The notes under the pieces were generated by a model. That model did not search any database, was not told where the DNA came from, and saw only the letters and a program-made list of their open reading frames with translations. Shown here in pieces: positions 1 through 39,281 of a DNA stretch of 39,480 bases (positions are counted from its first letter, which is position 1; each line of letters opens with the position of its first letter). The DNA comes from Rhodocytophaga aerolata. GTDB taxonomy: Bacteria > Bacteroidota > Bacteroidia > Cytophagales > 172606-1. Position numbers and translations under genes: made by a program. The stretch spans positions 1 through 39,480 of the forward strand of contig NZ_JAUKPO010000042.1 of the NCBI RefSeq assembly GCF_030503435.1, read 5' to 3'.

Positions 1-302
1 CTTTGAATATCGCCTAATTTATCGTATATTAACTCGGTATTTTTATCAAAATAGTGCAATTTCAAACCACCTCCAAAAAAGTGTTTGCGGAAAAACTGTG
101 TCTGGTTTTTGATGCCCGACTGCTCAAACACCCTGTCGTATACCTCTTTTTCTGCCTTGGTTAGATAAAAGCTGCCGACAGCATACTTTGTTTTTTGCTC
201 CTCCGGTTTAGGCTTGGGTCCACCAATGCCTTTACGGGATTTGACCTCTTTCCCGCTGACAGCATCCTTGCTGCCTTGGGCTTTGTCTGACTGCTTTTTC
301 AT
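1..302 (-). CDS. Mobilization accessory protein (MobA/MobC-like), C-terminus cut by window edge
   Basis: Read on the minus strand from the ATG at 300-302, the frame stays open to base 1, giving about 100 residues with no stop, so the gene is partial. The N-terminus is basic and low-complexity (MKKQSDKAQGSKDAVSGKE), followed by a conserved-looking block with 'YAVGSFYLTKAEKEVYDRVF' and 'SGIKNQTQFFRKHFFGGG'. This resembles the small ribbon-helix-helix mobilization proteins of Bacteroidota plasmids and conjugative transposons, which assist the relaxase at oriT. Inference: a relaxase gene (MobB type) should follow just to the left of the window. The divergent ParA-like cluster to the right fits the mob/tra boundary of Bacteroidota conjugative elements. 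An alternative is any other RHH DNA-binding protein; the family call rests on remembered similarity only. Confidence 0.6.
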   Translation of the reverse strand, partial: MKKQSDKAQGSKDAVSGKEVKSRKGIGGPKPKPEEQKTKYAVGSFYLTKAEKEVYDRVFEQSGIKNQTQFFRKHFFGGGLKLHYFDKNTELIYDKLGDIQ

Positions 303-557
303 AGAGTAGTTAGCCTTTGTATGTGTACCCTTTTTACCCGTCCGACTACGGAGGTAAGGGCTTTTTCCTCCATCCGTTAGGTGGAGGCTAGATCGTTCCA
401 ATGAGCTCATGTAACGAACTGACCAGAGGGAATTGAGTTATTTAGTGAATGGAACACATCTAGCTATTCTTTACCAAGAATACGATCTCCAAAGATATAC
501 CTTTCTGCTCAATTTCTAGCTTTTTGAGTAAAATTTCCTTTTTAACCTAGCTTCTTT
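303..557. other. Gene-free region, candidate oriT or divergent control region
   Basis: About 250 bases between the mobilization gene and the first iterated repeat hold no ORF. Visible structure: an inverted repeat CCTCCA (367-372) / TGGAGG (382-387), and a near-palindrome with TCGTT (393-397), the perfect ATGAGCTCAT (401-410) and AACGA (413-417). Small imperfect palindromes next to a mob accessory gene are typical of oriT, but no nic consensus was recognised, so oriT is inference. Confidence 0.35.
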
Positions 558-651
558 CTATTATTAGTCTATTATTAGTCTATTTTTAGTCAAAAGTTCT
601 ATTTTGATTAGGAATAGTCAATAATTAGTCTAATATTTGTCTATTATTAGT
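558..651 (+). repeat. 11-bp direct repeats (CTATTATTAGT), centromere- or operator-like
   Basis: Copies of CTATTATTAGT, exact or with few changes, start at 558, 569, 580, (608 degenerate), 619, 630 and 641. They form two blocks with an exact 11-bp period, so all units lie on one face of the helix. The last copy ends five bases before the ATG of the next gene (656). Such arrays upstream of a small DNA-binding gene and ParA-type ATPase genes are characteristic of plasmid centromeres and autoregulatory operators. The role is inferred; the repeats are directly visible. Confidence 0.65.
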
Positions 652-655
652 CAAC

Positions 656-1084
656 ATGAAAAAAATAACGAAAGAAGATATACTAGAAGCTTATGCTTTG
701 AAGAAAGGAAAGCGTAATCAACTCTTGTTTTACTATTATAAGCAGGAGTATTTTTCAGAGAAACTTCCTGCTGACATTATTGCTAAAAGGATATCTGAAG
801 ACTTAGGTATTCCTATTAATCGTAATATGATTTATCTAATCATTAAACGATATGCTAAAAACCAATTCTTTACTCTCCCCTCCAAAGTAGTAACTCTTCC
901 CCCTACTGTGGATACCTTTTCGGGTATACAGGTAATTAAGGAGGAGAAAGCAGAAGAGAGTAAAAAAGTACAAGCAGAGCAGGAAGATGATGATTATAAG
1001 TATATTCCTAAAAATACAGAAGACAAACCTAGGGTAAATCCATATGCTGGTTTGTTTAGTAAAAACAAGGAAAATAAAGAATAG
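656..1084 (+). CDS. Putative DNA-binding protein, first gene of ParA-like cluster
   Basis: 142 residues. The first ~70 are basic and helical ('ITKEDILEAYALKKGKRNQ', then 'ADIIAKRISEDLGIPINRNM', 'IYLIIKRYAKNQ'), compatible with a helix-turn-helix domain. The rest is an acidic linker (EEKAEESKKVQAEQEDDD) and a short 'RVNPYAGLFSKNKENK' tail. A DNA-binding domain plus a flexible tail is the layout of centromere-binding partition proteins, whose tail contacts the ParA ATPase. The gene sits directly behind the 11-bp repeats and about 80 bases before the first ParA-like gene, so it probably binds those repeats and represses its own operon. I do not recognise the family; function is inferred from context. 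Confidence 0.6.
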   Translation: MKKITKEDILEAYALKKGKRNQLLFYYYKQEYFSEKLPADIIAKRISEDLGIPINRNMIYLIIKRYAKNQFFTLPSKVVTLPPTVDTFSGIQVIKEEKAEESKKVQAEQEDDDYKYIPKNTEDKPRVNPYAGLFSKNKENKE

Positions 1085-1164
1085 ATAAATTTTATTCTTT
1101 TTTTTCTTGCAACAGTTTAAGTTATAGTCTAACTTCAACTATTAAATTACATTTAATCATTTAT

Positions 1165-1743
1165 ATGGAAACAACAGTAATTGCTTCAAAGCAAATCATT
1201 TTATCGACACAGGCAAAAGGCGGATCTGGTAAAACAGCAGTATCTACTTTCATAGCAGGGGAAAATCAAACAGCCCAAATCGCTGATTTTGATACTTTCT
1301 GCCGAAGTATATCTACTATACTGCCTTTCCGGAATCCCATGATTTTTTCCTTACATAACAAGAATGGAATCTATGACAAAAGCCGGATTCTCCAATTTTT
1401 TCAAGAGGTAGAACAAAGCACATTGGACTATTTCATCTGCGATCTGTCTTCCAGGGACTCCTGTGAAATTCCCTTTTATCTTCCAGCTAATGATGGGGTG
1501 ATAATGGAATATCTCAAACTTGCTGATATCCAGCTTTGCTTTGCTGTAGTTATTGCAGGGGGTAATATGTTTACTTCATGTCTTGAGTACTTAAAAAGTA
1601 TACATAAAACCTATAAGGGAGGTTCTATAATCCTTGCTTATAAAAACCTATTCTTTGAATTCAGCAACAATCAATCCTTGGCTTTGTCTCGCTTCTGTGA
1701 GGACAATAGCATTTTACTCAAACATCTTCCTGTACTTAATTAA
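1165..1743 (+). CDS. ParA/MinD-like ATPase, first of tandem pair
   Basis: 192 residues, short for ParA (usually 200-260). A deviant Walker A motif AKGGSGKT lies near residues 17-24, followed by 'AQIADFDTF' and a Walker B-like 'DYFICDLSS'. It is clearly paralogous to the next gene: both share TQAKGGSGK, a [FY]RNP motif, FICDL, [IL]PFYL, and G-G-N-[MI]-F followed by YLK-x2-HK. The C-terminus ends about 40 residues earlier than the paralogue, so it may be a reduced copy. Deviant Walker ATPases of this class dimerise on ATP and DNA or membrane and position plasmids, relaxosomes or protein complexes. Start: ATG at 1165; the next gene begins 34 bases downstream, so co-transcription is likely. Confidence 0.75.
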   Translation: METTVIASKQIILSTQAKGGSGKTAVSTFIAGENQTAQIADFDTFCRSISTILPFRNPMIFSLHNKNGIYDKSRILQFFQEVEQSTLDYFICDLSSRDSCEIPFYLPANDGVIMEYLKLADIQLCFAVVIAGGNMFTSCLEYLKSIHKTYKGGSIILAYKNLFFEFSNNQSLALSRFCEDNSILLKHLPVLN

Positions 1744-1777
1744 CATTTTCCACAATTAAATTTTAAAAACTATTCAA

Positions 1778-2479
1778 ATGAAAAAGAAACAATTAATTTT
1801 TATCACCCAAGCTAAAGGCGGATCTGGTAAATCTATTTTAACCTTTTTGCTGGCCGAGAAGTTTAGAAAAGCTACTATTATAGAAATGGATGATGCTACT
1901 AAAACAACCACTATTTATTTAGCCTATCGGAATCCTATACGCGTAACATTTTTAAATAAAAGAAAGCAGATAGACCGGGCCTTGTTTAACGATTTCTTAG
2001 AGGAAATTGCTCAAAGCGAAGATGAGTTATTTATTTGTGATTTGGGTGCTGCTATTTCTGAACAACTGCCGTTCTATTTAATAGAAGAAAATGAAATTCT
2101 GCCTGAGTTATTAGAAGCATTGAACCTAGAAATTATTTTCCTGATAGTAGTAGGCGGTGGTAACATCTTTTCTCAAACATTCTCTTATTTGAAAGAACTT
2201 CACAAAGTGGCAGGGCCAACGGTGCCTATGTATGTAATGAAAAATGGCCATTTTGATTTTGACCAAGAGCAGGAAGAGCTTTTAGAAGCCTACACTTCGG
2301 CTAAAAAGCTACCGGTTCATTACTACAATATTACTGAAGACAAGAATGATCCGGCTCAAAATAGAGTAAAGGAAGTACTCAAATCAGGTTTAGGGATAGA
2401 TGCAGCAATTACGTATTCAAAAATATTGTTCCAAAAAGCAATTAATAGATTAAATATCAGCTTTGATAACCTTTTGTAG
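1778..2479 (+). CDS. ParA/MinD-like ATPase, second of tandem pair
   Basis: 233 residues with Walker A AKGGSGKS (about residues 11-18), 'TIIEMDDATKTT' in place of the usual IDxDPQ segment, and Walker B-like 'LFICDLGAA'. The 'VVGGGNIFSQTFSYLKELHK' block matches the upstream paralogue. Unlike classical ParA there is no DPQxN motif, placing both proteins in a divergent subgroup. Tandem copies suggest duplication followed by division of labour, possibly a heterodimer. In the same orientation follow a tail-anchored protein gene and a terminator. By analogy with VirC1- and TraA-type ParA homologues in conjugation, a role in bringing the relaxosome to the transfer machinery is as plausible as plasmid partition. 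Confidence 0.75.
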   Translation: MKKKQLIFITQAKGGSGKSILTFLLAEKFRKATIIEMDDATKTTTIYLAYRNPIRVTFLNKRKQIDRALFNDFLEEIAQSEDELFICDLGAAISEQLPFYLIEENEILPELLEALNLEIIFLIVVGGGNIFSQTFSYLKELHKVAGPTVPMYVMKNGHFDFDQEQEELLEAYTSAKKLPVHYYNITEDKNDPAQNRVKEVLKSGLGIDAAITYSKILFQKAINRLNISFDNLL

Positions 2480-2545
2480 CAAAAACAAAGGCTGCCAAAG
2501 AATAACTTTAACTTTTACACTATCCTTAATTTAAAATCGCAATTT

Positions 2546-3007
2546 ATGCTAGATGCCAATGATGTTTCAGGCAAAATGCTAACAGAACAGCAGAAAAGAG
2601 ACTTCTGTGCCCTAATGCTTCGCCGGTATGGTGTACAACTGGAAACAGTCAATGAATTGCTACCGGCTTTCTATGTCAATTATCTGGCGGCCTCTATTTC
2701 TGAGAAAACAAGCAAAGAATCCAGGGAATCGATCATTATGCTTTTTAAAAGTTTTGCTGCAGAAACACAAAAGGCCAAAGAGGAATTTGTTTCTCATAGT
2801 GGGCAGGCGATTACACAGATTACCTCTATTGTATCCGAGTTTGAAAAAAACACGGCATCCAAGGTAGCGAATTTTGAAACCAAGCAGTACCGGTTTGATG
2901 ATCCCAAAACAGCTTTCTTTTTTGCTTTTGGTAAATATGGAATAGCTGGCTGCTTTGTTTCCCTGCTGCTCTTTATTTGTTTTATGGTGATGTATTTAAA
3001 CCGCTAA
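2546..3007 (+). CDS. Tail-anchored membrane protein with helical cytoplasmic domain
   Basis: 153 residues. Roughly residues 1-120 are soluble and helix-rich, with a heptad-like stretch around 'FKSFAAETQKAKEEF' and 'ITQITSIVSEFEKNTASKV' that could form a coiled coil. A single hydrophobic segment ('GIAGCFVSLLLFICFMVMYL') closes the protein four residues before the stop, so it is predicted to be tail-anchored facing the cytoplasm. It starts 66 bases after the second ParA-like gene and is followed by a hairpin terminator, so it is the last gene of the unit. A membrane-tethered partner for ParA/MinD-type ATPases would give spatial anchoring. No family recognised. Confidence 0.65.
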   Translation: MLDANDVSGKMLTEQQKRDFCALMLRRYGVQLETVNELLPAFYVNYLAASISEKTSKESRESIIMLFKSFAAETQKAKEEFVSHSGQAITQITSIVSEFEKNTASKVANFETKQYRFDDPKTAFFFAFGKYGIAGCFVSLLLFICFMVMYLNR

Positions 3008-3027
3008 TAAGTGGCTTTTTATAATCC

Positions 3028-3068
3028 TTCCCTCATTTTACGTAAGATAAGATGGGGGAAACTTTTTT
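3028..3068 (+). terminator. Rho-independent terminator of the ParA-like operon
   Basis: Inverted arms TTCCCTCATTTTA (3028-3040) and TAAGATGGGGGAA (3048-3060) pair at 11 of 13 positions around a 7-base loop and are followed by ACTTTTTT. It lies 21 bases after the last stop of the cluster. Confidence 0.7.
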
Positions 3069-3091
3069 AGAAAGTACTAATAAATTAAACC

Positions 3092-3889
3092 GTTTATTCA
3101 ATAATTATTAAAATTGACAAAAATAAATTTCCCATCACTGATCGCCTCTACAATAATAAAACCTTTGGACAGATAGCAGTAGATCCGGAAAGTTATGATT
3201 ATTTATTCTCCAAAAAAGAGATGCTTAATAAGCTTTATTAATCTTTTCTGCTGTTAAAACCCCCAGTCAGGTATGTATCGCAAGCAGTCATGGATGTGTT
3301 TAATAACGAACGATGAAAAAACTGCAAAAAAGTTATGGCATTTACGGGGTGAAGTAGAAACTTGCCAGGGCATATACACAAATAAATTATTGGCTATTAC
3401 AATTTATTCCATTAAGCGTGAAAAAGAAGGAATAGCTGTTTCTCTGATGAGTTTTTATAAAAACATGCTTACTACCGTTATAGATGCTACCTATAAATAC
3501 GATTTTAATGAAGAAAACAGTTTTCTGCCAGAGAGCATCAAAGACAAATCGGCTTCTCTTGTAGAGTTAGTGGTTAGTTTTGAGATATTCAGAAATATGC
3601 ACTGGTTGAAACCAAATATATTGCACGCAAAAAACAGATCAAGGACAAAACCATCAATTGTGTCTATCAGAACGAATCTACTTTCCCGGTAGAAATCATT
3701 GATTCTACTTACTTCACTACCCTTGTAAAATCGGATGCGTTCAAGGTATTTGGCCATTTCCGCCTGCAACCTTGTGGGGAGGGATCTAAAGAAAGGAAGC
3801 TGATCTGGATTAATGATTTTATTAAAGATAAATACACTGCTAGGGAACCTAAGATTCTTTCGCGTGGAGAAAAGGCAGAAAAAGCCTGA
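3092..3889 (+). pseudogene. Decayed hypothetical gene with stop and frameshifts
   Basis: Three protein-like pieces on the plus strand look like one broken gene. Piece 1 (frame of 3092, stop at 3239) includes 'ITDRLYNNKTFGQIAVDPES'. Piece 2 is open from an ATG at 3273 and contains 'TAKKLWHLRGEVETCQGIYT' and 'LVELVVSFEIFRN'. Near 3594 the coding sense moves to the frame of piece 1 and continues as 'YALVETKYIARKKQIKDKT', 'VFGHFRLQPCGEGSKERKL', 'IWINDFIKDKYTAREPKIL', ending at 3889. The join near 3594 is a clean -1/+2 frameshift; a second shift is likely near 3273-3320. The C-terminal block recalls uncharacterised Bacteroidota plasmid proteins. No function assigned. A sequencing error at 3594 is the alternative for one lesion. 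Confidence 0.6.
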
Positions 3890-3910
3890 CAGACGTATCT
3901 AGTCTGGTTT
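3890..3910 (+). terminator. Weak hairpin after the decayed gene
   Basis: CAGAC (3890-3894) and GTCTG (3902-3906) pair around a 7-base loop and are followed by GTTTTA. The stem is short, so termination is only possible. Confidence 0.35.
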
Positions 3911-4007
3911 TACTCCAGAGTCGAAAAACTAGCTCTTGACTGCTCCACCATGGAATGTTCATTTTTGAATGCAAACTTTCAACTCAGTGATAGAAGCATC
4001 CAAATAG

Positions 4008-4223
4008 GATATTTTTGAATGGTTCACGCAAAATAAAGGGATGCGTAGTGAATTACTTTATGAAATTTCCTTTATTGTATCTGACGCTGATGAATTAACA
4101 GCAAAGCATTTAGCAGCTATCAGATTTGAGGATATAGAGATTATTGTTTCCCTAGCTATGCTTCACAAAATCAGAAAAAAGCATAGCCAAAACATAAAAA
4201 ATAGGCTGCCTTTCTTCCAGTAG
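4008..4223 (+). pseudogene. Small ORF, probable gene remnant
   Basis: A frame open from 4008 (just after an in-frame TAG) runs to 4223. From the ATG at 4041 it encodes 60 residues beginning 'MRSELLYEISFIVSDADELT'. The sense-like sequence continues upstream of that ATG as 'DIFEWFTQNKG', with no start codon before the TAG, suggesting the front of a longer gene is lost. No family recognised; a real 60-residue protein from 4041 is the alternative. Confidence 0.35.
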
Positions 4224-4435
4224 ATGCTATAGAAGAAGCGCAGATGGGTACTTAGCTAACCTACAAAGGAAACCACTTAAGCCATTTGTAGCTCAAATCA
4301 TCAAAAGATAGGGAGAAGCCCTTTCATACGGGGACACTGGTATCTTTATACAAGATTATATATTAAATTTATTCGATTAATTCTAAATTTACCACCTGAA
4401 AAGATAAAAGTATCTGTATAGCAACCTTACAATCA

Positions 4436-4765
4436 ATGGATGAGCCAAAAAAAGATGACTTTAAAAATTATAGATCGTACTCCTACAATGATGCTCTCAG
4501 ACTTGTTCAATACGAGCTAAATCTATTAGAACAAAATCACGGAGTATTGAAAAAATGGTCTATTGAGCACCACTTTTCTTATACCACCATTGTGAATATA
4601 AAAAATGATAAACTTGGATCAGAGGCACCAAAAATGCTACTCAAAATACTCATTGCGCTAGGATTCGAGGCAAAATTGACCATTGATATAATCAGCACTG
4701 GCAAAGGAAGAAATGAGTTTGAAGAAAAACAATCCTATATCCTTAGAAGAATAAGTACTAAATAA
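4436..4765 (+). CDS. Small Cro/XRE-like regulator
   Basis: 109 residues. The centre ('LKKWSIEHHFSYTTIVNIKN' then 'APKMLLKILIALGFEAKLT') has the pattern of a degenerate helix-turn-helix of the Cro/XRE type followed by the usual 'LGFEAKLTI' strand. The C-terminal 'FEEKQSYILRR' resembles the end of the protein at 14120-14491, which suggests the two are distant relatives. It stands alone between decayed sequence on the left and a long gene-free stretch on the right. Targets unknown. Confidence 0.6.
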   Translation: MDEPKKDDFKNYRSYSYNDALRLVQYELNLLEQNHGVLKKWSIEHHFSYTTIVNIKNDKLGSEAPKMLLKILIALGFEAKLTIDIISTGKGRNEFEEKQSYILRRISTK

Positions 4766-5460
4766 TCGTAACTGTTCTTTTTTCAATTTAGACCCTATGA
4801 ATCTTATAAATAGGAGAAAAAAGCAACCTTCTTTCCCATCAGTAGCAAAACACCTACCAATTTTTGTTGATTCTGCCACATTCCGGTCCATGGATGGCTT
4901 AACAATACGCTCCCTGACAATAGAGAGCACACTCCCCTCCTATTTCTCACATAATTCTTTTTATGGTAAGGCTTAATACGTATGCAGACCTGTTAATCGC
5001 CTCATAGAAGACTTAAGAAACATGTAGGGTGTCTTCTGCGAAGTGCTTAATGAATCACCCGGCTGTGATGTGACAGGTCTTATGCCTTTGGTCAGGCCTA
5101 AGCCTAAATATTTTTTAGCGCATTGGCAGAGGCTGGTTACCGTTCAATGACTTTGCTGTGTCTTGAACTGCAGGAAATACAAGGGATGATGGCTTCCCCT
5201 TTCCCTAGAATTCTATGGTTGCGCCAGCAAAGACTTTAGACTAATGCACAATTACCGAAAGATCTTCGGCAGGTACAGTAGTATTACTATTTACTTTTAA
5301 CCCTTATCAAGTAATCTCTATACTATGAGATATAATGCCCTTGACTATTCCTAATAGCTTTTCTAAGTCATGTTTTATGTCTATTTAAATTTGTTTCATA
5401 TTTCTACTTAACCATATCAATTTCATTTGTACTAACTATATTTTCAATACAATTAATGCT
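4766..5460. other. Long gene-free region
   Basis: No convincing gene in about 700 bases. The longest ATG frame is 59 codons (4797-4976, beginning MNLINRRKKQPSFP), which matches no family I know and has no visible ribosome-binding site. Composition becomes strongly AT-rich towards 5400, where the partition repeats start. Confidence 0.4.
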
Positions 5461-5720
5461 TTTAATTAGTATTATTTAATATATTTTTTTGTTACTTTTT
5501 ATACTATCAAATAGTATTATACTTTTAATTCAAACTTAATAAATCAAATGTATTTCTCAAGTCCATATTTCCAAGGATATATATTTAAAACTTTGTCAAT
5601 AAAGAACAAAGAATATTATTAAAAGTATGCTACATATATAATGTATAATACTTTTAATATGTATTATACATTATAAAAGAGGTGTGCGTTTTAAAAGTAT
5701 TATACCATATAATACTTTTA
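5461..5720. repeat. Partition-site-like palindromes downstream of the par genes
   Basis: The motif TAATACTTTTA (or its complement TAAAAGTATTA) recurs with small changes near 5517-5528, 5618-5628, 5647-5656, 5692-5702 and 5710-5720. Two strong inverted repeats stand out: TATAATGTATAATAC (5637-5651) with its exact complement at 5661-5675 (9-base spacer), and TAAAAGTATTATA (5692-5704) with its exact complement at 5708-5720 (3-base loop). The second overlaps the stop of the RHH gene. The same motif occurs upstream of parA. Best reading: centromere (parS/parC) sites bound by the RHH protein; the last palindrome could also work as a terminator. Confidence 0.6.
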
Positions 5721-6002
5721 TTTAATTTTTGGTTTTCTGCCTACTTTTTTTCGGTTACGGACTTTTTCAGGGCGAGGTTTAACATCTTTATCTTTAAAAT
5801 ATTGACTTAATGCCTCATTAATGATCTCAATTTGTGTCATTCCTTCCCAATGGCCCCAATCTTTCATTTTTTCTATGATAGTAGAAGGTACAAAGGCAGT
5901 GACCTTACTTAAAGAATTGTCATCTGCTACAGTTTGCTCTACAATCGCTTGTTTAATTTGAGGAAGAGGTTTAAAATCAAATGTTTTATTTTCTTTCGCC
6001 AT
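5718..6002 (-). CDS. Ribbon-helix-helix partition protein (ParB/ParG analogue)
   Basis: 94 residues. The central 'KVTAFVPSTIIEKMKDWGHW' followed by 'MTQIEIINEALSQYFKDKD' has the strand-helix-helix pattern of ribbon-helix-helix DNA-binding proteins. The N-terminus is polar and probably mobile, and the C-terminus is very basic (RPEKVRNRKKVGRKPKIK). It overlaps the 3' end of parA by 17 bases, so the two are translationally linked. In type Ib partition loci such a small protein binds the centromere repeats, represses the operon and stimulates the ParA ATPase through its flexible tail. The flanking TAATACTTTTA palindromes are the likely binding sites. Confidence 0.75.
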   Translation of the reverse strand: MAKENKTFDFKPLPQIKQAIVEQTVADDNSLSKVTAFVPSTIIEKMKDWGHWEGMTQIEIINEALSQYFKDKDVKPRPEKVRNRKKVGRKPKIK

Positions 6003-6762
6003 AATTGTTTATTCTCTCAAGAATTTCTTTAGTTAGATTATAATAATCAGCAGCCCCATTACTTTCAGGAGCATAATCAAAAATATTAATGCCCTTGGCT
6101 TGTGCCTCAGATAATGCGATGTTATCACGAATATAAGTTTGCAGGAACCTATCTTGTAATTGTTCAGATGCACTAGCAATCAAATCATGACTAAGTTTTT
6201 TTCTTATTCTTGGATTGTAGCGTGTAGCAAAAACTCCACCTAACAAAATACCATTACTTATTTGCTGGATGTCATTTGCAAATTGTAAGAAATTTCTGAG
6301 TCCTTCATAGCTAAGAAATTCGGGCTGTAATGGTATAAAATACTCACTGCATGCAACTAGTGCTATTCTTGTTAACCCCGATAGAGCAGGAGGGCAGTCA
6401 ATAATCACATAATCATATCGACTTTTAATTTTGTCTAAAGCTATCTTTAAATTGAAGGGATATACTGCAGCAGACTTTATTGCTTCTTCTTTTGCTGTTA
6501 AAGCCACAGAAGAGGGTAATATATCTAATAGGCCATTGGAAAGTACTACCTGCTCGAACTTAGCTTCATTTAAGATAAAAGATCCAACATTTGTGTCTAC
6601 TTCTTCTTGTGAAAAACCGAACGACCTAGTCAAACTAGCTTGAGCGTCTAAGTCAATCATTAGTGTTCTGCCTCCACTTTTAGCAAGTGCTGCTCCTATA
6701 TTTTGTGCAGAGGTAGTTTTGCCTACTCCACCTTTGTTATTTACAATAGCTAATACTTTCAT
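5986..6762 (-). CDS. parA: ParA-family plasmid partition ATPase
   Basis: 258 residues from the ATG at 6760-6762. An upstream TTG (6774) would add four residues, but the ATG places the usual short lead before the P-loop. Deviant Walker A NKGGVGKTT is at residues 9-17, Walker A' 'LMIDLDAQASLT' near 34-45 with the D-x-D-x-Q signature, and Walker B 'YVIIDCPPAL' near residue 113. Length and motifs are those of standard chromosomal or plasmid ParA without an N-terminal regulator domain (type Ib-like). ParA forms ATP-dependent dimers on nucleoid DNA and moves plasmid copies with the centromere-binding protein, here the overlapping RHH protein. It is unrelated in detail to the two diverged ParA-like proteins at 1165-2479. 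Confidence 0.92.
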   Translation of the reverse strand: MKVLAIVNNKGGVGKTTSAQNIGAALAKSGGRTLMIDLDAQASLTRSFGFSQEEVDTNVGSFILNEAKFEQVVLSNGLLDILPSSVALTAKEEAIKSAAVYPFNLKIALDKIKSRYDYVIIDCPPALSGLTRIALVACSEYFIPLQPEFLSYEGLRNFLQFANDIQQISNGILLGGVFATRYNPRIRKKLSHDLIASASEQLQDRFLQTYIRDNIALSEAQAKGINIFDYAPESNGAADYYNLTKEILERINNYGERK

Positions 6763-6831
6763 GGTTTTTGACAAAAATAGTAATTAATGCATATCAAATG
6801 TTTTGTATTTACAATTAGATTAGAACTCTAC

Positions 6832-6950: not shown

Positions 6951-8090
6951 TTAGTAACTAAATCCTTCTACAATTATATTTTTATTTACTTTTAACATTT
7001 TCACAAAACCATTAAAAGGGTATGTTGTCGTTCCTTTTGCAATAGCTTCTTTGTATAGTTCTTCAGCCTTATTAATTGATATTAATTGTTGCAAAACTTC
7101 GATTTGTGATTTCGTAGCAATTTTGCTGGTCTTAGCCTTATTCTTTGATGATTTGAATTCTTCCATCAAATGAAGATCAACTATAGCTTTATAGATGGCG
7201 CCATTTAAGCTTTTAATTTTGCCTGTAGATTTCTCTTTCTTCTTAACTGAGATTACGTGATTTATATAGTCTTCATTGATAATACCTTCATTTATTAATT
7301 CAGCTATTTTAGGAATACTTTTAATACTTATTCCCAGGCTAATTAAAAGATTGTAAATGGGTTCTTCAAATTCTTTTTCTAAACTGTTCGAAGGGCCCAC
7401 ATTTACTTGAAATATAATTTCTTTGACCGCTCTACCGTCTTTAATCTCTTTAAATGAAAAAGGTCTATCACTTGTCTTGAGTTCATCTTGAACAGGAATG
7501 ATAATTCTTCTCTTAAAGTCAGCATATAAATCATATTTATCTTGGGCTTCCTTACCAAAAAGCATTGCTTTCAATTCAGATATAGAAATTTTGTATTGAT
7601 TAGTATTAAAGAGAGATTTCAACAACCAGTAAATACGAATTGCATGAGGATTTTTGATCTGAGTCAATTGATAGAGTTCTGCAGTAGTGAAATTACCAGC
7701 TAATTGTAGCAAAAATGGTTTTGCATCATCAAAAAATTTAGAATAAATGTAGCCACTACCTTTTTTATGCATACAACGTGCAACTATAACAACAAAATCG
7801 AAAGTGTCTTTTTCGTTCTTCTTTGCATTAATTTTAAAACCAGTTAGGTTGTCGCATGCTTCTTTCAATGATTTATAACTGTCCCCATCTAAAGTAGAAA
7901 TTACTTCATTTATAGGAATTCTTATCCAATCGAATGATGTATCACTTTTGTTCAATCGAGCAAGCATTGAAATAAATATCCGGCTCTCGATTACGCCCAT
8001 ACTATATCTACCGGTAATTAAATTATTATGCTGAGCCAGGTCTCTATTCTCTTGAGTCTTAAAGAGCTCAAATTGAGGCTTTAGTTTCAT
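6951..8090 (-). CDS. Rep_3-family plasmid replication initiator
   Basis: 379 residues from the ATG at 8088-8090; a TTG at 8108 would add six residues but lies closer to the operator palindrome. The N-terminal half has typical RepB/RepE (Rep_3) features: 'HNNLITGRYSMGVIESRIFI' (opening of the first winged helix) and 'LTQIKNPHAIRIYWLLKSLF' followed by 'ISISELKAMLFG' (second winged helix). The C-terminal third, with 'INEDYINHVISVKKKEKSTG', is a tail seen in longer Bacteroidota initiators. The protein binds iterons upstream of its gene as a monomer to open the origin, and as a dimer represses itself. Eleven iterons and an inverted repeat directly upstream fit this exactly. Confidence 0.9.
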   Translation of the reverse strand: MKLKPQFELFKTQENRDLAQHNNLITGRYSMGVIESRIFISMLARLNKSDTSFDWIRIPINEVISTLDGDSYKSLKEACDNLTGFKINAKKNEKDTFDFVVIVARCMHKKGSGYIYSKFFDDAKPFLLQLAGNFTTAELYQLTQIKNPHAIRIYWLLKSLFNTNQYKISISELKAMLFGKEAQDKYDLYADFKRRIIIPVQDELKTSDRPFSFKEIKDGRAVKEIIFQVNVGPSNSLEKEFEEPIYNLLISLGISIKSIPKIAELINEGIINEDYINHVISVKKKEKSTGKIKSLNGAIYKAIVDLHLMEEFKSSKNKAKTSKIATKSQIEVLQQLISINKAEELYKEAIAKGTTTYPFNGFVKMLKVNKNIIVEGFSY

Positions 8091-8113
8091 AGTAAGTATT
8101 TTGCTCAAAATAC

Positions 8114-8510: not shown

Positions 8511-8714
8511 TAAATAAAATAGCTACTAATTAGTTAGTAGCTATTTTATTTAGAAAGCATTTAAAAATGTATTAATAGAATATAATTCCTTATTGGAATT
8601 ATATTCTATTAAATTAGTCGAGTTTTAGCCAAATTGTATTAAACATGTTTATTTAAATTGGATAAATATAATATTAAATAATATTATATTTATAAAGTCG
8701 GGAAATAACCCGAC
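8511..8714. other. Four consecutive hairpins in AT-rich origin flank
   Basis: Perfect inverted repeats follow each other: 8511-8529/8534-8552 (19-bp arms, core TAGCTACTAA, 4-base loop); 8572-8589/8595-8612 (18-bp arms, core GAATATAATTCC, 5-base loop); 8662-8675/8680-8693 (14-bp arms, all A/T, 4-base loop); GTCGGG 8697-8702 / CCCGAC 8709-8714. They separate the iterons from the zinc-ribbon gene. The first two could be bidirectional terminators, the A/T-only part a DNA-unwinding element, and the group a secondary-structure origin (single-strand initiation). The palindromes are seen; the roles are inferred. Confidence 0.7.
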
Positions 8715-8765
8715 AAATATGACAAAACCCTCGAAGTAGGATTTATATTCTATAAAAGACTTCTA

Positions 8766-9065
8766 CTATTTAATTAAGTTTTGAGAATCAATTATAGCTT
8801 TCAATTCATCTATCTGTTTATAAGCCTGAGTAAGTTGTCCTTTGAGAAAAGCTACCTGGCTCATGAGTGATTCAATGGTAGGGTCGGGGGTAGGCCAGGG
8901 CACCAGCTCATCCCCTTTACGAGCCTGTGAAGCATAGCCCCGGCAGGTAGAAGAGCAGTACTGCGCTTGAGATCTGGAAGCAAAGAATTCAGTGCCACAC
9001 CAGGCGCATTGTTTATCAAAGACTTTTGCATTGGCTTTAAAATGGGCACGATTGAATTTAGGCAT
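8766..9065 (-). CDS. Small zinc-ribbon protein with C-terminal coiled coil
   Basis: 99 residues. An N-terminal four-cysteine cluster, CAWC (residues 20-23) and YCSSTC (residues 37-42), forms a probable treble-clef/zinc-ribbon. A helical region from about residue 63 ('IESLMSQVAFLKGQLTQAYK' then 'QIDELKAIID') has heptad spacing. Small proteins of this kind on plasmids often bind DNA or nucleic-acid complexes, but no specific family was recognised. It is transcribed towards the origin hairpins, and its upstream side faces the inverted repeat at 9114-9158. Confidence 0.6.
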   Translation of the reverse strand: MPKFNRAHFKANAKVFDKQCAWCGTEFFASRSQAQYCSSTCRGYASQARKGDELVPWPTPDPTIESLMSQVAFLKGQLTQAYKQIDELKAIIDSQNLIK

Positions 9066-10582: not shown

Positions 10583-11266
10583 CTAGGTTAAGTTAGGGGA
10601 GGCTTTTTGCAATTCCCGCTCATAGAGCCTTTTGACAGCCATGGGATGAAAAGCTTTGCCATAGCGGGTTTTGAATCCGGCTTGATTTAGTTCTTGGGCA
10701 ATGGCTCGATAGGTTGACCCATTCTGGCGTAAGAGCCGGATCACGGTCAGAGCTCTTACCCAATGCTCATCACTTCTGGCATTCTCCATCAACTTAGCTG
10801 TGCCTTTTTTTCTTATCTCATCCGTGAGAGTAAGATATGGACTACCCAACTTATAGCCTCTCTCTTTTTTTGCAGCCAAGGCTGCCTTGGTCCGCTCTGA
10901 GATCATCTTGCGTTCTTTCTCTGCCAGCGCAGCAAACAGGTGCACCGTGAAATGATCCGCAACCGGTATATCTAAAGCTTTAAATGCTACGCCTGATTCT
11001 AGTAGCGATGAAATAAAAAATACATTACGAGAAAGACGGTCTAGTTTGGCAATCACCAGTAAGGCTCCTTTGGCTTTTGAGAGTGTGATCGCTTTTAAAA
11101 GTTCTGGTCGGTTACTGTTTTTTCCTGATTCAACATCGGTAAACTCTGCTAGTAGTGTTCCACTCTTGCAAAAGTCTGCGACCATTTTTTGTTGAGCCGA
11201 GAGGCCAAGCCCACTCAGACCTTGCTTTTGGGTAGAGACCCGGTAGTAGGCTATATAGATGTTCAT
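10583..11266 (-). CDS. Serine recombinase (resolvase/invertase family)
   Basis: 227 residues from the ATG at 11264-11266; a longer start at 11296 adds ten residues with no family match. The resolvase N-terminal domain carries 'YIAYYRVSTQKQ' with catalytic Ser at position 11, 'LLVIAKLDRLSRN' (the Arg motif), and 'AALAEKERKMISERTKAALA'. A C-terminal helix-turn-helix ('GSTYRAIAQELNQAGFKTR') binds DNA. The enzyme makes double-strand breaks via a Ser-DNA bond at short sites to resolve or invert DNA. It is divergent from, and about half identical to, the recombinase at 11633-12298. Two divergent paralogues on a plasmid suggest multimer resolution or remains of two elements. Confidence 0.88.
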   Translation of the reverse strand: MNIYIAYYRVSTQKQGLSGLGLSAQQKMVADFCKSGTLLAEFTDVESGKNSNRPELLKAITLSKAKGALLVIAKLDRLSRNVFFISSLLESGVAFKALDIPVADHFTVHLFAALAEKERKMISERTKAALAAKKERGYKLGSPYLTLTDEIRKKGTAKLMENARSDEHWVRALTVIRLLRQNGSTYRAIAQELNQAGFKTRYGKAFHPMAVKRLYERELQKASPNLT

Positions 11267-11386
11267 AGAAGAGGAGTGAAACGTAAATTTTCTCAATCTA
11301 CAAAAAAATTTCTTTTGTCACAACTCAGCAACGCACGTTTATGATCTGATAAATTTGGCTATATTTCCCAATTAATTTAAAAAAGC

Positions 11387-11566
11387 ATGATTGAACTCAA
11401 GAAAATCTCTCCGGAGGACACCCTGGAGGTAAGCAAAATGAAGGATAAGTTTAACCGCTACGTTATGCAGATGAAAATTCAATGGAGTGAACTTTCATTT
11501 GAGGAGCGAAAGGACTTGTATGCGAAGCTTCGAAAAGTGGAAGATAAGCTTAGTCAATATGAGTAG
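11387..11566 (+). CDS. Small hypothetical protein between recombinases
   Basis: 59 residues from the ATG at 11387 to TAG at 11564-11566. It is highly charged and predicted almost entirely helical ('VSKMKDKFNRYVMQMKIQWS', 'FEERKDLYAKLRKVEDKLSQ'). Codon use is unremarkable and no stop interrupts it. It precedes the second recombinase by 66 bases in the same orientation, so it may be its partner or an independent small regulator. No family recognised. Confidence 0.5.
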   Translation: MIELKKISPEDTLEVSKMKDKFNRYVMQMKIQWSELSFEERKDLYAKLRKVEDKLSQYE

Positions 11567-11605
11567 GAGCAAGGAGGGAGTATAACCACCAAACCTCTAC
11601 AATGA

Positions 11606-11617
11606 ATTGTTAACAAT
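11606..11617. promoter_or_regulatory. 12-bp palindrome upstream of second recombinase
   Basis: ATTGTTAACAAT is a perfect palindrome 15 bases before the recombinase ATG at 11633. It could be an operator or part of a recombination site. Confidence 0.35.
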
Positions 11618-11632
11618 CTATTATATATATGT

Positions 11633-12298
11633 ATGCAAACCTATATTGCCTACTATAGAGTCTCTACTAAAGGTCAGGAGCAGTCTGGCTTAGGCCTGGA
11701 AGCACAGCGGAAAGTGGTGGAAAGTTATATTAAAAACAAAGGTCACATTCTGGAAGAATTCACTGACATTGAATCAGGGAAAAATGATAGTCGAAAAGAA
11801 TTGCAAAAAGCCATCAGCCTGGCTAATCAAAAAGGAGCTACTTTGCTGATTGCAAAACTAGATAGGCTGTCTCGAAATCTAACATTTATTTCTTCACTCA
11901 TGGATAGTGGGGTAAAATTCCTCTGCTGTGACCTGCCCGAAGCCAATGAGTTTACCATCCATATTTTTGCTGCCCTTGCCCAGCAGGAACGCAAGATGAT
12001 TTCCCAGCGTACTAAAGCAGCTTTGGAGGTAAAAAAGAAAGCCGGCATCAGGTTAGGTTCACCTCAAAACTTCACTTATGAGCATCGAGTGAAGGGAGGC
12101 AGTAGCAGAACAGAAAAGGCCAAAGAGGTGCTGGCTAATAAACAAGCAGCTAAAATCATTGTAAGGCTGAGAAAAGAAAGGTGGACCCTTGCCGCTATAG
12201 CAGCTGAGTTGAATATGGACGGATATCGGACTTCCATGGGAAAGCTGTTTACACCCATGAGCGTTAAGCGACTTTTTGACCGCTATTGGCTAGTATAA
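11633..12298 (+). CDS. Serine recombinase (resolvase/invertase family)
   Basis: 221 residues. 'YIAYYRVSTKGQ' carries the catalytic Ser at residue 11; 'LLIAKLDRLSRNLTF' and 'AALAQQERKMISQRTKAALE' complete the catalytic domain. 'WTLAAIAAELNMDGYRTSMG' followed by 'FTPMSVKRLFDRY' is the DNA-binding helix-turn-helix. The layout, linker and C-terminal 'PM(S/A)VKRL' block match the divergent paralogue at 10583-11266, so the pair descends from a duplication or from two related elements. Expected role: site-specific resolution of plasmid multimers or inversion. Start: ATG immediately after an AT-rich leader. Confidence 0.88.
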   Translation: MQTYIAYYRVSTKGQEQSGLGLEAQRKVVESYIKNKGHILEEFTDIESGKNDSRKELQKAISLANQKGATLLIAKLDRLSRNLTFISSLMDSGVKFLCCDLPEANEFTIHIFAALAQQERKMISQRTKAALEVKKKAGIRLGSPQNFTYEHRVKGGSSRTEKAKEVLANKQAAKIIVRLRKERWTLAAIAAELNMDGYRTSMGKLFTPMSVKRLFDRYWLV

Positions 12299-32250: not shown

Positions 32251-32457
32251 TTTTCTAGTCTATTAAATAATTTGATATATCTTTCTTCAAATTTCTAATA
32301 TAACTGCGCAGTCTTTTTGCGCAGTTATATTTTTTTTGGTGGTGATTATTTTATTTATGGACTGACTTTGATAAAATTATTCACATTGATAATTTAAAAA
32401 GTGTTCTATTTTTATTTACTTATCGATTTAAAATAAACAGTGGTTAAACTCACTCCT

Positions 32458-33177
32458 ATGATAGGTCTTCATGATCAGTGCAAGATTACAAAAGATGATA
32501 GCAAGAAGATTTGGAGGTATATGGATTTTGAATGGTTTGCTGACATGTTAGAGTCTGAAACTCTCTATTTTAGAAGAACTGATTTGTTTTCAGACATTTT
32601 TGAAGGCTCTTTGCCAGTTAAAACTATAAAAAAAAGAGAAGCACACTTCCATGAAGATAGTAGAAGGAATACGGTTACACGTGAAACCAAGAAAGAAAGG
32701 GTGATCTGCTGCTGGCATATGAACGACCAGGAATCAGCAGCTATGTGGAACCTATACATAAAAGGAAGAGAGGGTATAGTAATTCAATATACTATAGAAA
32801 GATTAAAAGCAGCACTTGGCCAGAGTAAAGAAACAGTTTGGTTAGGTGAAGTTGAATATATTGACTATGAAGAGGCTGAAATTACTCACACGAATGGATT
32901 GACTCCTTATTTACATAAAAGAAAAAGTTTTAAGCATGAAGAAGAATTAAGAGCAATTATTTGGAATAAAAGCCCTGAGAATAAAATCTTAAAGCTGGAT
33001 TTTTCTCCTGGAGGTTATAAACTGTTTATATCAATTAATACCCTTGTTGAAAATGTTTTTGTTTCTCCAAATTCACACAAATGGTATGTGGATTGGGTTA
33101 ATTTTTACATTCAAAAACATAAAAAATATCAATTTAAAGCCATTAATTCCTATATGGATAATGAACCGCTTTTTTAG
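32458..33177 (+). CDS. DUF2971 domain protein
   Basis: 239 residues from the ATG at 32458; a GTG at 32440 would add six residues. 'IWRYMDFEWFADMLESETLY', 'FRRTDLFSDIFEGSLP', 'CWHMNDQESAAMWNLYIKGR', 'GIVIQYTIERLK', 'HEEELRAIIW' and 'VFVSPNSHKWYVDWV' are the conserved blocks of DUF2971. The fold and biochemical activity are not established in what I know. The family is common on plasmids and prophages and often sits next to defence genes. Convergent with the large nuclease-STAND gene (about 70 bases between their ends). Confidence 0.82.
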   Translation: MIGLHDQCKITKDDSKKIWRYMDFEWFADMLESETLYFRRTDLFSDIFEGSLPVKTIKKREAHFHEDSRRNTVTRETKKERVICCWHMNDQESAAMWNLYIKGREGIVIQYTIERLKAALGQSKETVWLGEVEYIDYEEAEITHTNGLTPYLHKRKSFKHEEELRAIIWNKSPENKILKLDFSPGGYKLFISINTLVENVFVSPNSHKWYVDWVNFYIQKHKKYQFKAINSYMDNEPLF

Positions 33178-33246
33178 AGTAAGGAACAGCAAAGCTTTAG
33201 GCTTCAGCTAATAACAAAAAGCGATGTTTAGTACCTACCTGGCTGT

Positions 33247-36200
33247 TTAAACTTGTGCTAAAACCGCATTCAATTCTGCTCGGCAATCAGGTCTAGCTAG
33301 AAGTTTATCCAATAAGTTAAGAGCTGCTTGGCTTTCAGGTGAGTCAGAGGTATGATGGGATAAGCTAGTGTAGATTTCAATCAATATTTCAAGTCCTCTT
33401 TGGGCTCCTACGTAATTGCGTTTAGGGGGAATCTGTGAGAAAAGAGCATCAAGTATGGTTATACATTCTCTTGCATGGCTCCTGATATTTTGGGCAAGGT
33501 ACTCTAAAATATAATGATCATGGTCAAATTTTGAAGCACATGCCTCCAGATAAGAAATTAGTAGGGGAGCCATCCTGCCAAAAGTGTCAGATGGCAAGTG
33601 AAGGAATACAAAATTATAGGCTCTCCGGAGCTTTTCTGTAGGCTGTAGTGTGAGAAATAAAGCAAATGCATTGAAGAATACGCCTTTATCTGGCCAAACA
33701 TCGTAACCCTTTATTAATTGTTCAAGTGAAGTAGCTTTCAGCTCGGGTTCAATCTCCCATAGCTCTTTTAATAATTCAATGGCACCTGCTTTATCATGTC
33801 CCCACAAAACCGTAAGAATTTTAGTCATTGGCTCATAGGCTTTTTTCTCTCCCATAGCACAACGAAATAGTTTTGAAAAGGTATTATAATCTCGCCAGAC
33901 TAGGTATTGAAGCGACCAGAGGCCAGGTTCTATAAGCTCATAGTCTTCTCCTATTAAGTCTACAAATAGATTTACCGTTTCTTGGGGTGGGATTTCTGTA
34001 TTCAAAAGCATGGCTAGGTGATGCACAGCACCGGCTCGAACATAAAGTGATCCTTTCAAAGCTACTAATCGCAGGGTATCTACTACTTCCGGAATTACTT
34101 CTTTAGGCAAATTTTCCCTTAGTAGATTATACACTGCATAACCACCTGTCGAACTTAGTGCGTCCATCAATATATCTTTTTTTTCACCTGAGATAGTAGA
34201 TACTGAATCAAGATTGGCCCCAATTATCTTGAGCTCTGCCCGAATATCTTCAGGATCGGCTTTCTGCAGATTGCCATTTAAGTCCACACGGGTATTTCGG
34301 CATATTCGCCGAAGGTCGCCATCTGTCAACAAGCCCAGCTGGTGTGCTTCTTCAAGAAGTGGGCTAGCTAATAGAGGATTTGCATCATAAAGAATAGATA
34401 CGAGTGTAGCTACAGATTCATCCTGGTGTTTAATAAGGTATTGCACTAGTGGCTGCCATTGGGAAGGATTATCCTTTATTAATCTTGTAAGGTGATGCAA
34501 TAAACCCTCATATGTACCTTCCTCACTCATAAATTGGCGTTCTTTTACCCGATACTTACGCAGCGCCTTTAGCCAATTTTTAGCTGGTATTACATCTATT
34601 TTCCAATGTTGAGCTGGAGAAGGGTAACCGCTAGTAACTTTTACTCCTGAGTGAGGAACACTATTTGGTATATAGCCCCATTTACGTAAAAGTTCCTTAT
34701 ATAACTGCAGCAATTCAGGGAAATGAGAAAGTCTTTCCGGACTCAGAGCAAGTAAGTAATGTAAGGTTGCTCTACCGAATCTGGTATAAAACTTACTGTG
34801 ACCTTCGTATTTATATACCTCCTCATCAACTAATGTGATTCTGCTGGTTAAAGCCTTGGCTAACGACTGCTTTTGATCTAGAGAAGCAGCATCCCATATT
34901 ACCGGGAAAATCGTAAGGCAATAATAACTAAAACTATGGTCAGTTGCTTCAGCCAGCCAACCAGGTTTCAAAAACAATTTGAAAACGGCATCTGTAAAAT
35001 GGGCAGGTTTTGCGGCTATTGTTACTAAAGAAATATTAATTAATAGATTGACGCGGCTATGTAGCCATTTTTTTACAGTTCTGCGATCTGGTGCAGTGAG
35101 ATAATTAGTGGGGTCAACCAAATATTTCTGAGCATAAAATTGTACTGCATCTGTTGTATCCCGTAGTGTCTCCTCCTTCTCTGGAAAATCTTGCTCTAAG
35201 GAATAAGGTGCGGGTAAAAGTAGATATTTACTCTTCTTATTTTTATAGTATGGGTCTCTATAATTATTGGCTTGCCTTATCCAAGTGCGAAGTAACTTGC
35301 TACATATATTAAAGCAGATATCAGGAGCCGCTCTATAAAGTGCCTTAAAAATCTCTGTTTGTTGGTGATTTTCATGTTGGCTATTTCGGCTACATACCTT
35401 TGTCCATTCTTTTAACTGCTCATACATTTTGGAAGCTACCCATTGGGGCAAATCTTTTACAGCCTCCTGCAAAATATGCCAAAAGATAAACTGCTGGTTT
35501 GGAGTAACAAAGGATTCAAACAGCTTCTCAAAGAGTGGAATGAATAAGGGATGCTTAAAAGCTTTAAGCCTAAACAGTATATAAGCTATCCATTCCCGCT
35601 TATGTGTATTTTCAGGCAGTGCATCAACCTGTTCTATAGCTAGGCTAGGTGCGTAGTTAACAAGTCTCCAAAAGAGAGTTCGACCATCAGGTGTATCATC
35701 TAATGCCCCCACCTCTGGTATCAATTGTCTAAAAATTCGAGGCGAAGTCAGCCATTCCAACCATGGCCGGGCATTTACAGCTTCCAAGAAAGCAAGCCGC
35801 AGCGCATCATTTCTTAAAATGTAGTCTTCCACAACAGAAAACTCCTCAGTTAGTGGATTGGATTGCGATGCTATTTGTTGAGTTAGCAGCAGCCTAATAT
35901 GGAATCGACAGTGGATTGAGCCAAGCAATTGCCCAAGTGACAAAATATACTCCGAAGCATTGACACCCCTTAAATAAGTGAGCACTTGCTGAATGAGGGA
36001 CCGCTGAAACAGTCCCTGACCAGAACTTAGTACAAAATCAGCTAGGGACTTGTCAGATACTGCAAAATGGCGAGCAAACAAATATTCGTAGAAGGATTGG
36101 TGGAAGAATGCTATTTGTTGATCCAAAGGGCCCGTCACCACGAGAGCCCCACGACTACACAGATACTCAAAAACCTCTTCATCCTGATCCTGGTATTTAA

Positions 36201-37980: not shown

Positions 37981-38280
37981 TTATTGCCCTAATATAGTAT
38001 CAATATCCCTGCTCTGATGAAGCACTCGCCGTACCACAATATAGTTTTGAGCAATGCTATCATAAAAAATGGTGTAGGGATTGACCGGAAAGCTTCGTAA
38101 GCCTGATTTTAGCTCGGGACGTAACCTTCCCATCGCAGGGTTCAGGGCTAGACTCTGGCATTGCTGCTCAATTTTGTCAATCATTTGATCAGCCTGCTTA
38201 TCACTAGAGTTATCTGACATATATAGCCAAATTGCTATCAGGTCTTCTGCCGCTGCCTGACTAAGTTCGTACTTGGCCAT
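37981..38280 (-). CDS. parE: ParE/RelE-type toxin
   Basis: 99 residues. 'LSQAAAEDLIAIWLYMSDNS' opens the ParE fold; 'LALNPAMGRLRPELKSGLRS' and 'FPVNPYTIFYDSIAQNYIVV', 'RRVLHQSRDIDTIL' form the beta-sheet and C-terminal motif that distinguish ParE (gyrase poison) from mRNA-cutting RelE. Its start overlaps the antitoxin's stop by one base. It stabilises the island or plasmid by post-segregational killing. Confidence 0.92.
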   Translation of the reverse strand: MAKYELSQAAAEDLIAIWLYMSDNSSDKQADQMIDKIEQQCQSLALNPAMGRLRPELKSGLRSFPVNPYTIFYDSIAQNYIVVRRVLHQSRDIDTILGQ

Positions 38281-38675: not shown

Positions 38676-39281
38676 CTAATTTTCTCTAGTGGCTTTGCTA
38701 AACTCCTTTACTTCAACTCCTGCAAAACGCAAGATTTTATACAAAGTTCTACGACTACCAATCCCAAAATACTGCATGATCTGCGTAGTAGATTGCTTAT
38801 TCAATTCATACAGTTCTCCTACAGCATTAGCTATCTTTTGATATTTAGGAGCGAGTCCTTGTGGCCTTCCTCCTTTCCGACCACGGGCTCTAGCCGCTTG
38901 CAAGCCTGCCTTGGTCCGCTGTATAATCACATTGCGTTCATGTTCTGCTAAGGCACAAAAGATCTGAAACACCAGCACTCCACTTGGGGAAGTAGTATCA
39001 ATGGGATCATTGAGCGAGATAAGATTTATCCCTTTCTTAGAAAGCATCTCTACAAGTTCCAGCAGACCTTTGGTTGAACGGCCTAGCCGATCCAGCTTCC
39101 AAATGACAATCGTGTCTCCTTCCCTTACATAACTCATCAGTTTTTCAAATTCTGGTTTATGTGCTTTCATCCCCGATACCTTATCAGTATAGATCTTCGA
39201 GCACCCATGTTTTTCTAAGGCATCTAGTTGCAGATCTAGAATTTGTTCTTGGGTGGACACCCGGGCATAACCTACCTTCAT
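38676..39281 (-). CDS. Tn3-type serine resolvase
   Basis: 201 residues. 'MKVGYARVSTQEQ' carries catalytic Ser9; 'IVIWKLDRLGRSTKGLLEL' and 'FQIFCALAEHERNVIIQRTK' are the Tn3/Hin-family signatures. 'GRKGGRPQGLAPKYQKIANA' and 'YELNKQSTTQIMQYFGIGSR' form the hinge and helix-turn-helix. Closest in layout to plasmid and transposon resolvases of about 185-205 residues, and distinct from the two recombinases at 10.6-12.3 kb. The repeat copy at 39293-39364 starts 11 bases upstream of its ATG, where a res site is expected. Probably resolves co-integrates or inverts DNA at that site. Confidence 0.92.
   Translation of the reverse strand: MKVGYARVSTQEQILDLQLDALEKHGCSKIYTDKVSGMKAHKPEFEKLMSYVREGDTIVIWKLDRLGRSTKGLLELVEMLSKKGINLISLNDPIDTTSPSGVLVFQIFCALAEHERNVIIQRTKAGLQAARARGRKGGRPQGLAPKYQKIANAVGELYELNKQSTTQIMQYFGIGSRRTLYKILRFAGVEVKEFSKATREN

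Follow-up and report, generated by a model that had tools for sequence, protein, structure and literature searches.

The contig NZ_JAUKPO010000042.1 of Rhodocytophaga aerolata carries, near its start and beside a mobilization gene, four consecutive open reading frames (ORFs) on the plus strand. They lie at 656-1084 (142 aa), 1165-1743 (192 aa), 1778-2479 (233 aa) and 2546-3007 (153 aa), and were designated gene 1, ATPase 1, ATPase 2 and gene 4. In this study, we asked what this module is and what it may do. The window analysed is one whole contig (C139) of 39,480 bp, from a genome of 9.07 Mb in 202 contigs. An earlier sequence-only reading had proposed a mobilization-linked module of the positioning type, built on deviant-Walker ATPases, and this fits the evidence. 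It had also stated that no system with this exact set was described, and this did not hold, as the set matches stbABC of R388 and TraK-TraL-TraM part by part, except for the second ATPase. We consider it probable that the module belongs to the StbABC / TraK-TraL-TraM class and is the leader operon beside oriT in a mobilizable plasmid of Bacteroidota, with a doubled ATPase. The parts, their order, the association with MobA and relaxase genes seen in relatives, and the phased sites on the mob side could be read from the sequences compared.

ATPase 2 (1778-2479, +) was assigned as a TraL/StbB-type deviant-Walker ATPase. A hidden Markov model (HMM) search matched it nearly end to end with TraL NF010461 (E 4.7e-13, residues 8-216). 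A profile of 45 Cytophagales ATPases, ATPase 2 and 44 relatives, matched a profile of eight TraL proteins with Prob 99.9 (6e-33), and seven mismatched profile pairings gave P 0.58-0.98. The comparison sets omitted L089 for gene 1, L089 and L093 for gene 4, and L107 for the ATPase. In PHROGs, ATPase 2 touched a ParA-like family (2.8e-5, first 57 residues), and nothing useful was found for genes 1 and 4.

Searches with the ATPase alone, in which the own genome was counted each time, found the family in 6/98 relatives, 30/390 genomes of the order and 2/395 of the phylum sample. Relatives with the family include Chryseolinea, Ohtaekwangia, Pseudochryseolinea, Dyadobacter and Emticicia. From 53 places in the order search, five fragmentary ones were not included, and L068 was without a full ATPase. 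The family ATPase was present in 65 of 66 sequences (the window and 65 loci). At 95% identity these formed 46 clusters, with gene 1 in 42, gene 4 in 45, MOB (MobA/MobC) in 41 and relaxase in 38; the window was scored as a miss for the last two. These counts lean to inclusion because the family models were grown inside the fetched loci. The module was also found with MobA and relaxase on a 9-Mb contig (L012). New here are the occurrence of the class in 30 of the 390 genomes of this order and, in one of 65 loci, the window, two ATPases in tandem; the other 64 have a single ATPase.

Gene 1 (656-1084, +) encodes a small helical protein in the StbA/TraK position, to which its position and size fit, and it is the presumed binder of the iterated sites described below. 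Its model has four helices in residues 6-70 (block pLDDT 75-88) and is of low confidence past residue 70 (49-61). Neither a Pfam family at E <= 10 nor a match of its profile to PDB sequences was found. Gene 4 (2546-3007, +) encodes a tail-anchored protein in the TraM/StbC position, with its most hydrophobic 19-residue stretch at 133-151 of 153. A profile of 43 gene 4 proteins matched one of seven TraM proteins with Prob 68 (6.3e-6). The tail anchor claimed by the sequence-only reading was real in the window, but 39 of 43 Cytophagales proteins in that position have 44-92 residues beyond the stretch, whereas the window and Emticicia proteins end near it. The count after the helix in L013 is an artefact of a long N-terminus, and L095 was without a clear helix. 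A search of plasmids with gene 4 by tblastn gave no match. No trace of the longer C-terminal domain was found after 3007, where a match of E 0.44 on the other strand was the only one.

The set maps in order and orientation onto stbDRs-StbA-StbB-StbC of R388 and onto the RP4-type TraK-TraL-TraM. According to the available part of PMC3098194, on which all statements about R388 genetics here rest, stbABC is divergent from the MOB operon across oriT and its repeats have an 11-bp period (9 bp plus 2), as in the window. A DNA-binding protein, presumed to be one in the window, a ParA-superfamily ATPase and a small protein with its most hydrophobic stretch near the C-terminus follow in both. R388 differs from the window in its single ATPase, in its altered Walker A (SGxxGK[T/S]; PMC3098194) and in its MOBF relaxase. 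StbC (L128, R388 8603-8989) is called an orphan in PMC3098194; its best hydrophobic stretch is at 98-116 of 128 and the TraM profile matched it over 24 columns (Prob 42.1). The IncP type was compared through relatives of RP4. Like the window, it has relaxase-traJ divergent from traK-traL-traM, a KGGxGK ATPase and phased repeats before traK, and 7/7 of its TraM-position proteins end <=5 residues past the hydrophobic stretch. It differs in its single ATPase and distant sequence. The window thus holds a TraL-type ATPase in a unit that adjoins relaxase or accessory genes and leads away from oriT, upstream iterated sites and a membrane-anchored third gene, but two ATPases where the class has one. 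Since an ATPase gene is added, the window is a variant and not a plain member. These results extend the class to a branch of Bacteroidota; the available part of PMC3098194 lists several Inc groups without naming that phylum. A literature search of titles and abstract openings, mostly non-subscription, found no description of the module in Bacteroidota, which is a weak negative.

Other known systems were also compared. The sequence-only reading had named a one-to-one match with the tra genes of conjugative transposons (CTn) among the results that would speak against it, and this did not occur. The CTn-type ParA gene beside DUF4134/TraG genes, which we take to be the one named TraA, shares with the module the ParA superfamily, a conjugation locus and Bacteroidota. 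It differs as a canonical ParA in a different place, and in Emticicia it is additional to the module: pEMTOL01 has the module by the relaxase and a separate ParA by DUF4134/DUF4133/TraG. This ParA scored 15 bits against the module ATPase profile, compared with 140-311 for the near full-length places of the order search, and the CTn TraA set was rejected. A Type I ParABS locus did not fit either, as ATPase 2 fell below the AAA_31 cut-off (E 0.11), ATPase 1 was unlisted for AAA_31 and gene 1 had no Pfam family. VirC1 of Agrobacterium resembles the module in that it is an ATPase of the ParA superfamily, with a proposed role in delivering the relaxosome to the cell pole and to the secretion channel (PMC3098194, available part). 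Membership was rejected, PF07015 being unlisted for ATPase 1 or 2 at E <= 10.

Phased sites, mob neighbour and candidate oriT

The 11-bp iterated sites noted in the sequence-only reading were confirmed as one array at 557-652 (+), with the unit TATTATTAGTC and clusters on either side of an irregular stretch near 592-608. Tandem Repeats Finder reported it as a single array of period 11 with 9.2 copies, 62% matches and 8% indels. In 411-655, lag 11 was the best among lags 8-33, and the best value over all lags was reached by 1% of 300 dinucleotide shuffles. The 200 bp upstream of gene 1 gave z 4.3 at lag 11. Matches to the unit with <=2 mismatches numbered 25 in the whole window against 24.9 expected, so that only their clustering stands out.

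We then examined the phasing by layout. The mob genes are divergent in 15 of the 46 clusters, downstream with gene 1 first in 15, downstream with gene 1 last in 10, and otherwise placed in 6. Loci were treated as independent, dinucleotide shuffles were used and the best of 40 lags is given; six of the 46 clusters (L067, L053, L095, L102, L103 and L107) were omitted, and L105 was without gene 1. Among 14 loci of the divergent layout, the 200 bp upstream of gene 1 reached a Stouffer z of 12.8 for lag 11 and 8.5 for lag 22, and the control, 200 bp after gene 4, gave at most 2.4 (15 loci). In the two co-directional layouts it was the mob side that carried the repeats: at lag 10, z reached 12.3 in 15 loci of one layout and 9.1 in 10 loci of the other, and the upstream regions gave at most 2.9. 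The period is thus 11 bp with divergent and 10 bp with co-directional mob genes, and in each of these layouts the repeats are on the mob side. The 10-bp result is post hoc because the layouts were split only after a pooled run, in which z was 9.1 at lag 11 in 31 loci but also 8.0 at lag 10 in the stretch past gene 4 that was intended as a control. Next to the 10-bp repeats of co-directional loci, L014, L061 and L016 among them, a long inverted repeat resembling an oriT was noticed, by eye only.

Phasing was also detected in the known systems. The 250 bp before stbA of R388 gave z 6.1 at lag 11. Six TraK-upstream regions pooled gave z 8.6, 7.8, 6.6 and 5.9 at lags 20, 10, 42 and 11, a signal to which one region, L123 of Acinetobacter lwoffii pALWED2.2, contributed most. 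Its 200 bp before the TraK-position gene gave z 7.3 at lag 10 and 9.7 at lag 20. The comparison points to two testable traits common to the class: helix-phased sites next to the mob genes and a third protein with a membrane anchor.

The place of the sites between divergent genes, together with the 9-bp motif that sits in other R388 promoters (PMC3098194, available part), would suit a mainly transcriptional circuit, in which gene 1 would use the iterons to repress the divergent promoters of the mob genes and of the leader operon, and the rest would be accessory. We regard this as quite improbable, as it leaves both the conserved ATPase and membrane protein and the phased mob-side sites of co-directional loci unexplained.

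The sequence-only reading had placed the module next to a mobilization gene, and this was correct. The ORF at 3-410 (-) encodes a MobA/MobC-type relaxosome accessory protein, which scored 29.7 bits against PF19514 MobC_2 (cut-off 27.5) and matched NF041324 Bacteroid_MobA under its curated cut-off of 150 (E 9.4e-7, 28.9 bits). The contig end cuts this mobA gene, and from comparison with the contig C150 its true start is probably near 302. The first 55 bases of the window are identical to the end of another contig, C196, and C150 starts with the same 55 bases. C196 (L116) holds the remaining mobA and then a MobB-type relaxase at 3300-5693, in two open parts with an in-frame TAA between them. It is probably a repeat common to two replicons, since its last 55 bases start both C139 and C150, and the in-frame stop may be an assembly effect.

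C150 (L117), a second contig of the same genome, carries at 1-1182 a separate mobA and a homologue of gene 1 (57% over 106 residues) with 11-bp repeats of its own, the consensus of which is about ATTACACTTTC. The iteron consensus agreed at 7/11 positions between the window and C150 and at 8/11 between C150 and L011/L012. The idea that the iteron sequence tracks the gene 1 helix was dropped, this difference being too small to use. Between mobA and the iterons, at 369-505, lies a candidate oriT with a predicted stem (387-400/450-464) and hairpin (465-471/476-482). Blocks at about 369-408 and 448-505 are nearly identical in C139 and C150 while the surrounding DNA diverges, and the same stem and hairpin were predicted in both (z -1.6 and -2.6). 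The candidate oriT DNA had no match in the plasmid collection.

A putative role in positioning

In R388, as the available part of PMC3098194 reports, stability depends on StbA, which binds the repeats and inhibits transfer, and transfer depends on StbB as long as StbA is there. These roles were carried over to the window on the basis of position and kinship. Gene 1 would coat the 11-bp sites along one helix face next to oriT, and the TraL-type ATPase would act on this complex. Through the membrane-anchored gene 4 product, the relaxosome and plasmid could be brought to the inner membrane or kept there, close to a secretion channel provided in trans, and gene 1 on its sites may favour even distribution and vertical stability. 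A receptor role of the gene 4 product at the inner membrane is suggested by its anchor and by the similar stretches of TraM and StbC. By analogy, the operon most likely positions relaxosome and plasmid at the inner membrane and balances transfer against stability.

TraG-type and coupling proteins encoded elsewhere in the genome could act in trans. TraG-type genes on C131 and C111 scored over the cut-off and a third, on C117, below it. Coupling-protein genes lie on C111, C131 and C117, and the same family was also matched in 5/14 control genomes. A separate three-gene copy of the module, accompanied by a relaxase, is present on C111 (L011). On C111 and on C131 alike, genes for a relaxase, a coupling protein and a TraG-type protein lie within tens of kb; both regions are likely integrated conjugative elements, and of the two only C111 matched the module's ATPase.

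An array of sites, a presumed DNA-binding protein and a ParA-superfamily ATPase also match the layout of a second plasmid partition system, in which gene 1 and its sites would form the centromere complex, the ATPases would act as ParA and transfer would be incidental. The need for StbA in R388 stability (PMC3098194, available part) is consistent with this. However, the window already has a canonical ParA at 5986-6774 (-; AAA_31 E 1.5e-47), which agrees with the claim of the sequence-only reading that the module is distinct from the classical par locus. The module keeps the company of MobA and relaxase even on the 9-Mb contig L012, ATPase 2 is under the AAA_31 cut-off, and StbB of R388 was dispensable for stability in the same partial account. 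Classical partition was not chosen as the main identity, and we judge it unlikely. Since a Rep3-type initiator (6951-8108, -) accompanies the ParA, the window is probably a plasmid or most of one.

Several observations weigh against a leader operon with this role. ATPase 2 scored 49 bits, compared with the curated TraL cut-off of 360, and is thus a distant TraL relative. The kinship of gene 1 to TraK or StbA is weak at the sequence level: its profile (41 proteins) matched that of six TraK proteins with Prob 13.8 (4.6e-4), and of the 61 PDB matches that its fold search returned at E <= 10, none reached E <= 0.001. Similarity of the R388 proteins to the Cytophagales profiles was weak (StbA Prob 3.0, StbB 39.5), StbC having no match to gene 4 (Prob 0.6), and deletion of StbC had no effect in R388 (PMC3098194, available part). 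Co-directional rather than divergent layouts were found in 25/46 loci. The MOB and relaxase models gave no score on the window itself: its mobA is truncated where the contig ends, and the relaxase, which lies on C196, carries the in-frame stop. C150 has mobA and gene 1 but no ATPase and no gene 4 in its first 9 kb, so that gene 1 can stand alone.

The second ATPase

ATPase 1 (1165-1743, +) was identified from alignment, tree, model and codon score as a diverged TraL/StbB-type paralogue with a shorter C-terminus. Against NF010461 TraL it gave only E 0.057. It is identical to ATPase 2 at 58/185 aligned residues, and the unusual block that the sequence-only reading had seen in both could be read out as GGNMFTSCLEYLKSIHK and GGNIFSQTFSYLKELHK. 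This block is a motif of the local family, because near relatives retain its GG[AG]NIF and YL and distant ones retain little.

We next compared the 18 positions conserved in >=90% of the 45 ATPases. Each of the 45 keeps >=16, and ATPase 1 keeps 11, among them the P-loop lysines, including the signature lysine, and three aspartates. Altered are S19 (to T), T41, T43, R67, G90 and A91, and F183 is absent. ATPase 1 lacks the C-terminal region, and no remnant of it was found downstream. In the tree, ATPase 1 fell within an 18-row clade (98/99) holding ATPase 2, with a branch of 3.01 compared with 0.69 for ATPase 2. Its exact place is unsure because the branch is so long. A search for orthologues of ATPase 1 matched 11/194 relatives, own genome included, all at 23-32% identity except ATPase 1 itself. 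Viral contigs gave no match for ATPase 1 and none for A4.

The tandem pair in a single locus, the long branch, the seven of 18 positions changed or absent and the missing C-terminal part are what would be expected if ATPase 1 were a decaying duplicate without a role in an ordinary three-gene leader operon. Its codon score of 0.084 was also below those of the other three genes (0.115-0.219). However, its frame scored as coding (z 4.8), and 0/300 frames stayed open in neutral-drift simulations to 31% identity, so that ATPase 1 is unlikely to be long dead. The retained P-loop, signature lysine and three aspartates argue in the same direction, as does its model (pLDDT 92.7), which resembles FtsY, FlhG, MipZ and ParA/ParF. 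We hold the decaying duplicate to be rather unlikely.

As a presumably functional paralogue with altered switches, ATPase 1 would most likely partner or restrain ATPase 2, or modulate it, rather than act alone. A tentative possibility is an asymmetric pair on the relaxosome, in which one subunit hydrolyses ATP and the other, with altered switches and lacking the C-terminal region, binds ATP and gives the signature lysine. If this is true, the pair and the gene 4 product as its membrane receptor would form a two-component motor, the first that we know of in the Stb/TraL class, and the subunit ratio could set the balance between staying and transferring. A naturally occurring pair in which one subunit is altered would be useful for studying how the ATPase of such operons moves the relaxosome.

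Remaining features of the window

The terminator that the sequence-only reading placed at the end of the unit is a real hairpin at 3028-3060 (+) with 13 pairs and a T-run. However, a scan of 1-4500 found four terminator-like sites against 3.5 expected, and it is weak evidence because such sites are near their chance number. Between the module and the par locus, 3270-4770 holds short ORFs, two of which gave no Pfam match when tested. Three serine recombinases (PF00239) lie within 10583-12298 and 38676-39281, the first two divergent. A ParE-type toxin (PF05016) is encoded at 37981-38280, with a possible antitoxin immediately upstream. A 1535-aa protein with an AAA/NACHT-like domain (PDC-M54A E 1.5e-16) is encoded at 32440-37854, and a PDC-S31-type protein (6.1e-21) adjoins it; both are candidate defence genes.

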